41,093 nucleotides of DNA from Draconibacterium orientale (GTDB taxonomy: Bacteria; Bacteroidota; Bacteroidia; Bacteroidales; Prolixibacteraceae), in assembly GCA_020726265.1 (NCBI GenBank), contig DYSZ01000015.1:1-41093 (forward strand). The letters run 5' to 3'. The notes under the pieces were generated by a model. It was not told the DNA's origin, made no database searches, and saw only the letters and a program-made list of their open reading frames with translations. A program made the translations under genes and the position numbers. Shown piece by piece: positions 37,422-41,093 of this stretch; positions within the stretch are counted from its first letter, which is position 1, and each line of letters opens with the position of its first letter.

Positions 37422-38714
37422 ATGACTTCAAAAAGTAAACTTTCGGTTGTAATTGATATTGGTACCTCGAAACTTGTAGCCGTGGCTGGTACAAAAAATG
37501 AGGCTGGAAAACTTGACATCGCGGGAATAGTAAAAACAGAGTCGAAAGGGATTAAACGTGGTGTGGTTTACAATATCGAAGAGGTGGCTGCCTCAATTCA
37601 GGAGTTGATACGGCAGCTCGAAACAAAACTGGGCGAAAGTGTGGAATCGGTGCAGGTGGCTTTTGCCGGCCAGCACATGAAAACCATTCATTTTCAGCGT
37701 TCACGCTTTACTTCCGACGAGGGAATTGTGAGTAAATTCGATGTTGACAACTTGATGGAACAGGCAAAAAGTTGTGAACTTGAAGAAGGCTACAAACTTG
37801 TCGAAGTAATTCCGGTTGCCTTTTTGGTCGATGACGAAGTAATTCAGCGGAATCCGGTTGGAATTACAGGCCGCAGAATTGAAGCTCATTTCAAATTACT
37901 CGTAATTCCGAACAGTTACTGGCTCAACCTGAAAAGGGTTTTCGACAAAATCGGGGTTGCGCTCAACGGCATTACCTTTTCTGTATTTGCCGTGGCCGAT
38001 GCGATTGTTACGCGCGATGAAAAGGAAATGGGCGTGATTGTGGTTGATATCGGTTGCGGTACCACCAAAATGGCTGTTTATCACGAAAACAGGCTGGTTC
38101 ATGCTGCTGCCATTCCATTTGGTGGCGACGTGGTTACTAACGATATTAAAGAAGGTTGTTCAATTTTGCTCAAACATGCCGAACAACTGAAAGTGAAATA
38201 CGGACAAGCTTTAGGCGATTTTGCCGACGACCAGAAAGTGGTTACCATTCCCGGCCACAACGGTTGGGAGCCAAAGGAAATTTCATTCAGAAGCCTGGCA
38301 TTTATTATTCAGGCGCGCATCGAAGAGATTGTTGACAGCATCAACTTCCAGATTCAGAAAGCCGGCGTTGAGAACCTGGTAGGAGCTGGAATTGTACTTA
38401 CCGGCGGAACATCAAACCTTGAAAATATTGTGGCCCTGGTGAAATACCGTACCGGACTCGATGTGCGAAAAGCCAATCTGGTTCTGGGTTTTAACGAGCG
38501 TAACAAAGATTTTCAGCAATCCGATTTTTATACTGCGTTGGGTTTGCTCAATCTTGCCGAGAAAAAAATGAGCCCGGCAGCGTCACAACCAATTGAAATT
38601 AAAAAGGAAAAAGCGCCGAAAGAACCCGGCAAACTGTCGCAGCGGTTTAACAACTTTGTACAGGGCGTGCTAAACCTGGTTGACGACGACAGTGAAGATA
38701 GCGCATTAAATTAA
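37422..38714 (+). CDS. ftsA: Cell division protein FtsA
   Basis: Actin-like ATPase that anchors FtsZ to the membrane and recruits later division proteins. It has 430 residues. Seen: phosphate 1 loop SVVIDIGTSKLVAVAG, the 1C subdomain (about 85-165), phosphate 2 loop VIVVDIGCGTTKMAVYH, and the adenosine-binding VLTGGTSNLENI. The C-terminus, KLSQRFNNFVQGVLNLVDD, looks like the amphipathic membrane-binding helix, followed by an acidic end. It lies just before two ftsZ genes, both possible partners. Confidence 0.95.
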   Translation: MTSKSKLSVVIDIGTSKLVAVAGTKNEAGKLDIAGIVKTESKGIKRGVVYNIEEVAASIQELIRQLETKLGESVESVQVAFAGQHMKTIHFQRSRFTSDEGIVSKFDVDNLMEQAKSCELEEGYKLVEVIPVAFLVDDEVIQRNPVGITGRRIEAHFKLLVIPNSYWLNLKRVFDKIGVALNGITFSVFAVADAIVTRDEKEMGVIVVDIGCGTTKMAVYHENRLVHAAAIPFGGDVVTNDIKEGCSILLKHAEQLKVKYGQALGDFADDQKVVTIPGHNGWEPKEISFRSLAFIIQARIEEIVDSINFQIQKAGVENLVGAGIVLTGGTSNLENIVALVKYRTGLDVRKANLVLGFNERNKDFQQSDFYTALGLLNLAEKKMSPAASQPIEIKKEKAPKEPGKLSQRFNNFVQGVLNLVDDDSEDSALN

Positions 38715-38725
38715 ATTCAAAGAAT

Positions 38726-40033
38726 ATGACCGAAGAATTAGTAAACTTTCTGTTTCCGAAAGCATCATCTTCCATCATAAAAGTGATTGGTGTTGGTGGT
38801 GGCGGATGCAACGCCGTAAGTCATATGTGCGAAGAAGGAATCCGTGGTGTCGATTACATTATCTGCAATACCGATGCCCAGGCTCTCGAAACAAACATCG
38901 TTCCGGTTAAAATACAATTAGGTGTTACATTAACCGAAGGACGCGGTGCCGGTAACCAGCCCGAAATGGGCGAAGAAGCAGCCCGCGAAAACTACGAGGA
39001 TTTGAAAAAAGTGTTGAAAGACAATACAAAAATGCTTTTCATCGCTGCCGGAATGGGAGGAGGAACAGGAACCGGTGCCGCTCCGGTAATTGCAGGCCTG
39101 GCACGCGAACTCGATATTCTCACCATTGCCGTGGTTACAATTCCTTCGCCTGCCGAAGGCCGGAAACGTTATTCGCAGGCAATGGAAGGTATTCATAAAC
39201 TTGGAAAATATGTCGATAGTATGCTGGTAATCAGCAACCAGCGACTGCATAATATCTATGGCGATTTGCCCGCCCGCCAGGCTTTTAAAATGGCCGATAA
39301 CATTATTGCAACAGCAGTTAAAGGTGTAGCCGAAATTATTACTGTTCATGGTAATGTAAACATCGATTACGCCGATGTAAAAACTGTAATGCAGAAAAGC
39401 GAAGTGTTTATAATGGGTACCGGTTATGCCATTGGCGAAGGTCGTGCCATGGAAGCAGTAAACATGGCGCTCGAGTCGCCACTACTCGACAGCAACGATA
39501 TTTACGGAACCAAAAATATTTTATTGAATATTATTTCGGGGAAAGAGGAAGTCAGAATCGGAGAAATTGGCGAAATCATTGAAACGCTTCAGGAACGTGC
39601 CGGTCAGGAGGCCGATATTATCTGGGGGAATGGATACGATGAATCGCTGGACGATAAAATCAGTGTTACCATTCTGGCTACCGGCTTTGTTAATAATCCG
39701 AATAAAATTCTTCAACCGCGTAAACAGACTGAAAAATTTGATTTGGAACAGCAGGAATTCAGGGAAGAAAAAGCTGAAGCTGCATTTGAAGAAAGCAGCA
39801 ACTTCGGATTTCCGGAACCTGAACCCGATTTTGAGTTGGAACTGACGAGCGGAAAAGTGATTGAAAATGAGAAGAGGCCGGAGGAAGGGACTTCAATTTT
39901 TAGTTCAGGAACACGAACAGAAAAGAAAAAACCCAGGGCCAGTGAACCAGTTTCTGAAAATGTGGACAACTGGTTTGTCAAGAAATTCGGGTTAAGCCGG
40001 TTGTTCGACGATGATGAAGACCAGTCATTGTAA
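38726..40033 (+). CDS. ftsZ: FtsZ paralogue 1 (divergent)
   Basis: Tubulin-like GTPase of 435 residues. Seen: VIGVGGGGCNAVSHM, the G-box GGGTGTG (111-117), and the T7 catalytic loop NIDYAD (212-217) with both aspartates kept, so GTP binding and hydrolysis look possible. It departs from the usual sequence in several places: PSPAEGRKR where PFR.EGRRR is typical, NIDYAD for NVDFAD, and HGNVN for PGYIN. After the core (about 325) comes an acidic linker, and it ends in WFVKKFGLSRLFDDDEDQSL, without the usual Pro-Ala-Tyr/Phe-hydrophobic-Arg tail peptide. It lies 11 nt after ftsA and 31 nt before a second, more typical ftsZ. Confidence 0.93.
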   Translation: MTEELVNFLFPKASSSIIKVIGVGGGGCNAVSHMCEEGIRGVDYIICNTDAQALETNIVPVKIQLGVTLTEGRGAGNQPEMGEEAARENYEDLKKVLKDNTKMLFIAAGMGGGTGTGAAPVIAGLARELDILTIAVVTIPSPAEGRKRYSQAMEGIHKLGKYVDSMLVISNQRLHNIYGDLPARQAFKMADNIIATAVKGVAEIITVHGNVNIDYADVKTVMQKSEVFIMGTGYAIGEGRAMEAVNMALESPLLDSNDIYGTKNILLNIISGKEEVRIGEIGEIIETLQERAGQEADIIWGNGYDESLDDKISVTILATGFVNNPNKILQPRKQTEKFDLEQQEFREEKAEAAFEESSNFGFPEPEPDFELELTSGKVIENEKRPEEGTSIFSSGTRTEKKKPRASEPVSENVDNWFVKKFGLSRLFDDDEDQSL

Positions 40034-40064
40034 TAAACCCTTTTAACAATATAAACTGAAAAGC

Positions 40065-41093
40065 ATGGATGAAAATGTAAAACATTTGGAAAACAACCAC
40101 GGGAGTGCAGAGATTAAGGTAGTTGGCGTTGGTGGTGGCGGTGGAAATGCCGTGAATTACATGTGCAGGCAGGGAATCCGCGATGTTGATTTTGTGATTT
40201 GCAATACCGATGCACAAGCCATGGAATCGAGCCCGGTTCAGGCGAGGGTGCAGTTGGGAGCATCGCTTACCGAAGGCAGAGGCGCTGGCAACAAACCCGA
40301 AGTTGGCAAAGAAGCTGCCATCGAAAATATTAACGATGTGATGTCGGCACTTTCAAAGAATACAAAAATGGTGTTTGTAACTGCCGGAATGGGTGGTGGA
40401 ACCGGAACGGGAGCTGCCCCGGTAATTGCAAAAGCCTGTAAGGAAGCCGGATTTTTAACAGTTGGCATTGTAACCATTCCGTTCAGAAACGAAGGACGCC
40501 GTCGTATTAAACAAGCCGCTGATGGTATTGCCGAATTGGAAGGCTACGTCGATTCGCTTTTGGTGATTAACAACGAACGCATTCGCGAGATGTTTGGCGA
40601 TTTCCCGATTTCAGAAGCTTTTTCACGGGCCGACAATGTGTTGGCAACTGCGGCAAAAGGCATTGCCGAAATTATTACTGTTCCCGGTTATATCAATGTC
40701 GATTTTGCTGATGTTGAAACTGTAATGCGTAAAAGCGGTCTGGCGATTATGGGAACCGGAATTGCCGAAGGTGAAACCCGTGCTGCCGAAGCAGTTGAAA
40801 GTGCGTTGAATTCGCCTTTACTGAATAACAACGATATTCGCGGAGCACGAAATATTCTGGTGAATATTACTTCGGGGAGTATTGAAGTTACCATGGACGA
40901 GATTGGTGAAATTACCGACATTGTTCAGAATAAAGCCGGATTTGACGCCGATTTGATTTGGGGAAATGGCAAGGATGATTCACTCGGTGAAAAACTTTCT
41001 GTTACAATAATCGCCACAGGTTTTAATACCGGAATAATTCCTGAATTAAACGGTGAAACCCGAAGCGCCCGCGAAAGACATTTTCTGATTGAT
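40065..41093 (+). CDS. ftsZ: FtsZ paralogue 2 (typical; 3' end beyond window)
   Basis: A second tubulin-like division GTPase. It begins at ATG 40065 (MDENVKHLENNHG) and stays open for 343 codons to the window edge, covering the entire GTPase core. Seen: KVVGVGGGGGNAVNYM, GASLTEGRGAGNKPEVG, G-box GGGTGTG (110-116), IPFRNEGRRRIKQA, T7 loop NVDFAD (211-216) and SVTIIATGF. All match the standard Bacteroidota FtsZ. The C-terminal linker and tail peptide are not visible. Compared with its neighbour it is the canonical copy and probably the main Z-ring protein, which is inference. Confidence 0.95.
   Translation, partial: MDENVKHLENNHGSAEIKVVGVGGGGGNAVNYMCRQGIRDVDFVICNTDAQAMESSPVQARVQLGASLTEGRGAGNKPEVGKEAAIENINDVMSALSKNTKMVFVTAGMGGGTGTGAAPVIAKACKEAGFLTVGIVTIPFRNEGRRRIKQAADGIAELEGYVDSLLVINNERIREMFGDFPISEAFSRADNVLATAAKGIAEIITVPGYINVDFADVETVMRKSGLAIMGTGIAEGETRAAEAVESALNSPLLNNNDIRGARNILVNITSGSIEVTMDEIGEITDIVQNKAGFDADLIWGNGKDDSLGEKLSVTIIATGFNTGIIPELNGETRSARERHFLID

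Follow-up and report, generated by a model that had tools for sequence, protein, structure and literature searches.

The dcw cluster of Draconibacterium orientale and its family carries two adjacent ftsZ genes behind ftsA, which are conserved across the family, fall into two separate clades, retain intact catalytic motifs, and encode complementary C-terminal tails. The pair was encountered at the end of a stretch of 41,093 nucleotides (contig DYSZ01000015.1), the whole of which is called the window here. Both products are known proteins in the sense that they are FtsZ by their core features; what is new is an adjacent, family-wide FtsZ pair whose C-terminal tails are divided between the two copies. 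For such a pair, the preliminary description had suggested mixed filaments or a regulatory role for one copy; the comparisons below speak for roles divided at the tail, perhaps in attachment to the membrane.

Two FtsZ cores behind ftsA

In the ORF list, ftsA, ftsZ copy 1, and ftsZ copy 2 follow one another on one strand (Table 1), with ftsA ending 11 nt 5′ of copy 1. The preliminary description of this DNA had reported two full FtsZ GTPase cores after ftsA, 31 nt apart, and this was borne out by the ORFs and by Pfam matches in both proteins, namely PF00091 (150.3 bits in copy 1 and 149.7 bits in copy 2) and PF12327 (FtsZ_C; 78.4 and 86.3 bits, respectively), with both copies exceeding the Pfam cut-offs. 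Moreover, 49 distinct solved FtsZ sequences (PDB) match each of the window copies at E ≤ 1e-20. Because of these Pfam and PDB sequence matches, the FtsZ fold of the two copies, whose cores are 60% identical, is not in doubt.

Table 1 Features of the tandem ftsZ locus, in window positions
Feature	Positions	Strand	Remarks
ftsA	37422..38714	+	430 aa; ORF call; PF14450 103.9 bits, PF02491 51.8 bits
ftsZ copy 1	38726..40033	+	ATG, 435 aa; full FtsZ core, altered C-terminal tail; family-wide clade
T7 loop of copy 1, NIDYAD	39359..39376	+	catalytic N-x-D-x-x-D retained
C-terminal tail of copy 1, NVDNWFVKKFGLSRLFDDDEDQSL	39959..40030	+	replaces the PA[YFW]xR...VD tail
Gap between the ftsZ genes	40034..40064	+	31 nt
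ftsZ copy 2	40065..41093	+	ATG, first 343 codons, 3′ end open

The catalytic motifs of FtsZ, as given in the excerpted text of PMC12583498, are the GGGTG[TS]G (T4) loop and the N-x-D-x-x-D T7 loop. Each of them occurs in 59/59 different copy 1 proteins of the family, in all of which T7 reads N-I-D-[FY]-x-D, and the corresponding counts for copy 2 are 49/49 and 48/49. By these core features copy 1 counts as an FtsZ, though its C-terminal peptide is missing.

The contig stops at base 41093, inside copy 2 and before the C-terminal tail of this protein. Among named relatives, the nearest is a MAG of Prolixibacteraceae (L060), whose cores are 92% (copy 1) and 87% (copy 2) identical to those of the window; it has a complete copy 2 (464 aa, L060:6350-7744), followed by a 150-aa ORF. 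By eye, the FtsA C-terminus, LSQRFNNFVQGVLNLVDDDSEDSALN, resembles a helix for membrane targeting with acidic residues behind it.

Conservation of the tandem in the genus and family

Two PF00091 matches were found in 34/36 other genomes of the same genus. Each of these 34 genomes, six of which are single-contig assemblies, has the two matches on the same contig and strand, their starts being separated by 1.3–1.4 kb. In the remaining two genomes (G015 and G035), copy 1 is truncated by the end of the contig. The tandem is also present in the Draconibacterium orientale chromosome NZ_CP007451.1 (L048). Throughout the window's family (f1), at least two FtsZ matches occur in 130/140 genomes, the window genome counted, a single match in four (G015, G035, G071, and G121, all at contig ends), and none in six, two of which are rated 95% and 97% complete. 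Adjacency was read in the same genus, in all ten genomes of the family that gave three matches, and, for every one of the 23 genera, in one genome or more. Two of the ten, G108 and G139, have an additional full-range match at a distance from the division-cluster ftsZ.

A set of 59 family loci, picked by match to copy 1 or PF00091 and partly overlapping with the above genomes, gave the same picture, with both ftsZ genes seen, whole or partial, in 56 and the other three (L041, L182, and L183) cut by contig ends. The closest named records are those of Maribellus, Draconibacterium, Mariniphaga, and Tangfeifania, which belong to Prolixibacteraceae by NCBI ranks.

The contig end inside copy 2 would fit an artefact of assembly or binning, and the preliminary description had itself named an assembly error as a possible undoing of the pair; a recent strain-level duplication belongs with the same explanation. 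No such error came to light, the pair being present in 34/36 other same-genus genomes, six of them single-contig. Together with the 60% identity of the window copies and the separate clades that the two copies form family-wide (below), this recurrence leaves the explanation with a practically negligible probability, and both chance and an artefact were rejected.

Age of the duplication and conservation of the cores

A quick tree, covering all 23 family genera, was calculated from 158 FtsZ cores and a careful tree from 111 of them. The 47 rows dropped from the careful tree comprised long branches (including copy 1 of L165, L170, and L176), near-duplicates, and a distant single-copy group; cut copies (copy 2 of L059, L073, and L168) were left out of both trees. 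As had been anticipated from the window, the pair is not a recent duplication. Thus, the copy 1 proteins of the family formed one clade with a support of 100 in the quick tree and 100/100 in the careful tree, and the copy 2 proteins formed a separate clade with supports of 90 and 94/92, respectively. Since each copy has its own family-wide clade, the duplication is at least as old as the radiation of the family, and a recent strain-level duplicate, also at odds with the 60% identity of the window copies, was rejected. A constraint that put the family's two copies together was itself not rejected (p-AU 0.49).

The stems of the copy 1 and copy 2 clades measured 0.53 and 0.11, respectively, in the quick tree and 0.58 and 0.14 in the careful tree. 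Compared with 13 single-ftsZ loci of the order, the cores were 58.7% (copy 1) and 65.8% (copy 2) identical. Within the family, in contrast, mean core identity was 84.8% for copy 1 and 79.5% for copy 2, with copy 1 higher in 315/325 pairs, which derive from 26 family loci with both cores and are not independent. The initial characterization of copy 1 as divergent and copy 2 as canonical is therefore upheld as far as the longer stem and the lower likeness to single-copy FtsZ are concerned, and needs refinement within the family, where the copy 1 core is the more conserved one and the clearest difference resides in the C-terminal tail. Judged by its sequence, copy 1 is old, different, and tightly held.

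The better conservation of the copy 1 core could also mean that the main structural role falls to copy 1, with copy 2 acting mainly as a minor or regulatory link to FtsA; the copy 1 tail would then set filament dynamics (bundling, turnover) and not tethering. A difference in dynamics and stability is described for chloroplast FtsZ1 and FtsZ2 in an excerpt of PMC12343686. The catalytic motifs are, however, kept in both copies, and we consider this assignment of roles improbable.

Divided C-terminal tails

Tail patterns were counted on different sequences, namely 59 of copy 1, 49 of copy 2, and 49 from single-ftsZ loci of the order and class. The pattern PA[YFW]xR in the last 110 aa was found in 0/59, 47/49, and 42/49 of these, respectively; of the two copy 2 proteins without it, one comes from a record that is partly masked. 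It is not defining for FtsZ, because 7/49 ordinary single copies also lack it. In FtsZ, the conserved C-terminal peptide serves FtsA and other partners, and the canonical peptide of copy 2 is one that we take to resemble DIPAFLR of E. coli. Likewise, a [VIA]D terminus was present in none of the 59 copy 1 proteins, in 47/49 of copy 2, and in 34/49 from single-ftsZ loci.

Copy 1 has another tail, which is short and aromatic-basic with an acidic end (consensus WFxxxF...[KR][LF]F-DD). Thus, W[FLI]xx(x)[FLI] occurs in the last 45 aa of 58/59 copy 1 proteins and in 0/49 of either other group, and a hydrophobic-F-(x)-acidic end (last 32 aa) in 57/59, against 7.9 on average and 14 at most with shuffled copy 1 tails, in 2/49 of copy 2, and in 0/49 of single-ftsZ loci. 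Moreover, [KR]x?[LIFM]F is present in 47/59 copy 1 tails (shuffled, 6.3 and at most 12) and again in 0/49 of both other groups. An alignment of 25 copy 1 proteins (25/59, the W-less L170 not among them) shows no variation at Trp416 and Phe427 (W416 and F427). The exceptions are L170, with neither the W motif nor the F-acidic end, and L174, without the F-acidic end. Copy 1 of L170 (G125) ends in GGGMFDGIKKIFGKLVKAPEDQNFK, another aromatic-basic tail, and copy 2 of the same locus also lacks PA[YFW]xR.

Two FtsZ proteins that both retain the catalytic motifs and are encoded in the same array would also agree with a mere matter of dosage or redundancy, in which the two do the same job and the tail has changed by neutral drift. 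Drift would not produce a contrast in PA[YFW]xR of 0/59 (copy 1) vs 47/49 (copy 2) together with strong conservation of the new tail, and we regard this reading as very improbable.

Tandems outside the family

How far the tandem is conserved had been raised in the preliminary description, together with an FtsZ tree to see whether copy 1 forms its own clade, as was found above. Beyond its family-wide occurrence, adjacent copies were present in 18/385 genomes of the order's other families, 51/385 having at least two matches. Adjacent pairs were seen in f16 (G051), f23 (6/6 genomes), f81 (G219), f87 (G310, 1/6), and f100 (5/5), and adjacent triples in f32 (3/3 genomes) and f67 (G205). The two copies of G310 group together in the tree, and this pair is a later duplication. 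In the class outside the order, 273/283 genomes have one match, so that the statement that most bacteria carry one ftsZ at this place holds in the sample taken.

Several further records were noted in these searches. Tubulin/FtsZ-like matches lie away from the division-cluster ftsZ in G342 and G456 (f19), G278 (f42), and G216, G304, G376, and G479 (f78). The title of one MAG, Draconibacterium orientale isolate SulCav (L070), is probably erroneous: its locus contains a single ftsZ, and three trees place it away from the Prolixibacteraceae rows. Short FtsZ proteins (~360 aa) that are distant matches to the copy 1 patterns occur in L088, L090-L104, and L106-L109, mostly MAGs titled Bacilli.

The division of tails mostly recurs in the other tandem families. 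In f23, f32, f67, f81, and f100, PA[YFW]xR was found in 0/19 non-last copies and 15/15 last copies, and the hydrophobic-F-acidic end in 15/19 non-last copies (f23, 5/5; f32, 5/6; f67, 1/2; f100, 4/5; f81, 0/1). The latter end is also carried by 4/15 last copies, all from f23 (4/5 of its last copies), and the copy 1 tail pattern is thus not perfectly specific as a sequence mark. Tails similar in style to that of copy 1 and different in wording occur in other families. Neither tail pattern is found in one non-last copy each from f81, f16, f87, and L073 (copy 1 in the case of L073), and in the f16 and f87 pairs PA[YFW]xR is absent from both copies. In the ftsZ triples L141, L146, and L150 (f32) and L142 (f67), the first two genes lack PA[YFW]xR and the third keeps it.

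As to the origin of the tandem, one clade of the altered-tail copies of all families was not rejected (p-AU 0.306). A MurC+MurG tree, in which f16 was left out for want of MurC and four of the six f23 genomes were included, scatters the tandem families among single-ftsZ families; the free tree amounts to six changes, and one clade of tandem lineages on it was again not rejected (p-AU 0.343). A single origin and several origins are both compatible with the trees.

Nature of the copy 1 tail

A clean amphipathic helix of the FtsA/MinD type was considered for the copy 1 tail and rejected, a helix-periodic hydrophobic face being unsupported: the helix periodicity of the averaged tail was non-significant (p 0.68), and subsets by tail length gave p values of 0.08 at best, 0.59, and 0.62. 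Among single tails, 12/33 of copy 1 and 0/28 of copy 2 beat their own shuffles at p ≤ 0.05; the mean largest moment per tail was 0.50 for copy 1, 0.39 for copy 2, 0.31 for single-ftsZ loci, and 0.56 and 0.65 for FtsA. An AlphaFold2 model gave the copy 1 tail low confidence (mean pLDDT 45 and 42 in the tail blocks), with a predicted five-residue helix at 417–421, and adds little about it.

The hydrophobic-F-acidic end is shared with FtsA, in which it was found in 29/54 proteins of the family and 21/46 of single-ftsZ loci (shuffled, about 3). According to the excerpted text of PMC11285052, a cyanobacterial FtsZ tail served both membrane and partner binding; land-plant FtsZ1 has lost ARC6 binding and uses a short motif at its C-terminus, which is RR/KLFF in angiosperms, for binding the membrane, and plant FtsZ2 keeps the protein-binding motif. 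We favour a self-tethered copy 1 because FtsA tails end alike, because plant FtsZ1 has this membrane motif, and because [KR]x?[LIFM]F is present in 47/59 copy 1 proteins.

As the chief rival explanation, the tail of copy 1 may have become a new peptide for binding a different protein (another anchor or a regulator, or FtsA at another site), whereby copy 1 would be tethered or regulated through a partner and not through lipid. Invariance of Trp416 and Phe427 in the 25 aligned proteins and the missing helix periodicity would both suit such a specific protein contact. On the other hand, the hydrophobic-F-acidic end is common to many FtsA tails (29/54 and 21/46), the [KR][LF]F of copy 1 is also found in the plant FtsZ1 membrane motif, and tails of similar style and different wording elsewhere are more readily explained if the tail binds lipid than if it docks to a protein. 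Weighing these points, we think a different partner rather unlikely.

The rate of FtsA evolution was also compared with those of MurC and MurG. FtsA of the family evolves faster than both in 345/351 pairs. A tandem-linked speed-up of FtsA seemed well supported when 13 close single-ftsZ loci served for comparison, FtsA being above MurC in 78/78 pairs of these loci; it vanished with 21 loci, where FtsA was above both Mur proteins in 94 of 210 pairs and below both in 91, and was rejected. Because the single-ftsZ pairs are thus mixed and FtsA is the slower protein in the tandem family f23, the FtsA rate does not single out the tandem. The FtsA of f100 (L241-L245) is extremely divergent, with a mean identity of 25% to FtsA of single-ftsZ loci, and MurC and MurG of f100 are, unlike its FtsA, about as similar as in other families.

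Discussion

From the above comparisons, we propose that copy 2 may be the FtsA-linked FtsZ and copy 1 a co-polymerising FtsZ with a tether of its own, like chloroplast FtsZ1, a reading to which we give about an even chance. An old duplication within the cluster would have led to two specialised FtsZ proteins, whose genes are probably co-transcribed. With its canonical C-terminal peptide, copy 2 would be the partner-linked FtsZ, presumably held at the membrane through binding to FtsA. Copy 1 would be a full GTPase that has lost the standard peptide and gained the short aromatic-basic, acidic-ended tail; most likely it joins the same ring as copy 2 by co-polymerisation, and its tail most likely attaches this ring to the membrane directly, or, with lower likelihood, via a different protein. 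The ring would thereby possess two kinds of tether. Put more generally, bacteria would have evolved a ring of two FtsZ proteins, one self-tethered to the membrane by its C-terminal tail and the other, encoded next to it in the cluster, still linked to FtsA. Such a ring would parallel chloroplast FtsZ1/FtsZ2 and may have arisen several times in one order (pairs of f1, f23, f81, and f100; triples of f32 and f67); this wider statement is made tentatively, with somewhat less than an even chance of being right.

The tandem proteins agree with the canonical single FtsZ of the dcw cluster in their Pfam domains, GTP-binding and T7 motifs, and place after ftsA, and copy 2 of the relatives also in its standard type of C-terminal peptide. 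They differ from it in that the genes are two and adjacent and that copy 1 has another tail without the standard peptide. In the few bacteria with two ftsZ genes, the additional copy lies outside the dcw cluster, according to the excerpted text of an FtsZ/tubulin survey (PMC9871819); the present pair likewise places two ftsZ in one bacterium, whereas both are inside the cluster, adjacent, and found across a family. The tandem thus qualifies the statement, as printed in that excerpt, that second bacterial copies sit outside the dcw cluster.

Among archaea, FtsZ1 of Odinarchaeota is described in the excerpt of PMC12583498 as binding the membrane directly and FtsZ2 as doing so via SepF. The tandem would share this split between direct and adaptor-mediated tethering; the archaeal system differs in the N-terminal position of the amphipathic helix of Odinarchaeota FtsZ1, in its adaptor SepF, and in its archaeal duplication. 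Membrane attachment affects FtsZ treadmilling, as seen with engineered FtsZ-mts chimeras (excerpt of PMC7320174).

The likeness to the chloroplast pair of plants and green algae, as far as the excerpted source describes it, lies in one paralogue keeping the partner-binding C-terminal motif and the other having a short aromatic-basic tail, with RR/KLFF in chloroplast FtsZ1 and KLF, RLF, or RFF in copy 1. The Bacteroidota pair differs in its separate duplication, in the adjacency of its genes in the dcw cluster, and in the acidic end after the motif, and the likeness is one of sequence pattern. Among the matches listed in open-licence literature, we found no paper on the Prolixibacteraceae tandem FtsZ pair and none for Prolixibacteraceae together with FtsZ.

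Why two FtsZ proteins are present in chloroplasts and in many archaea is a question under study. If the proposal is true, the tandem would be an independent repeat of the two-FtsZ design in an FtsA-bearing bacterial family with cultured members, and would make it possible to study what the ring gains from a second FtsZ that is tethered differently.
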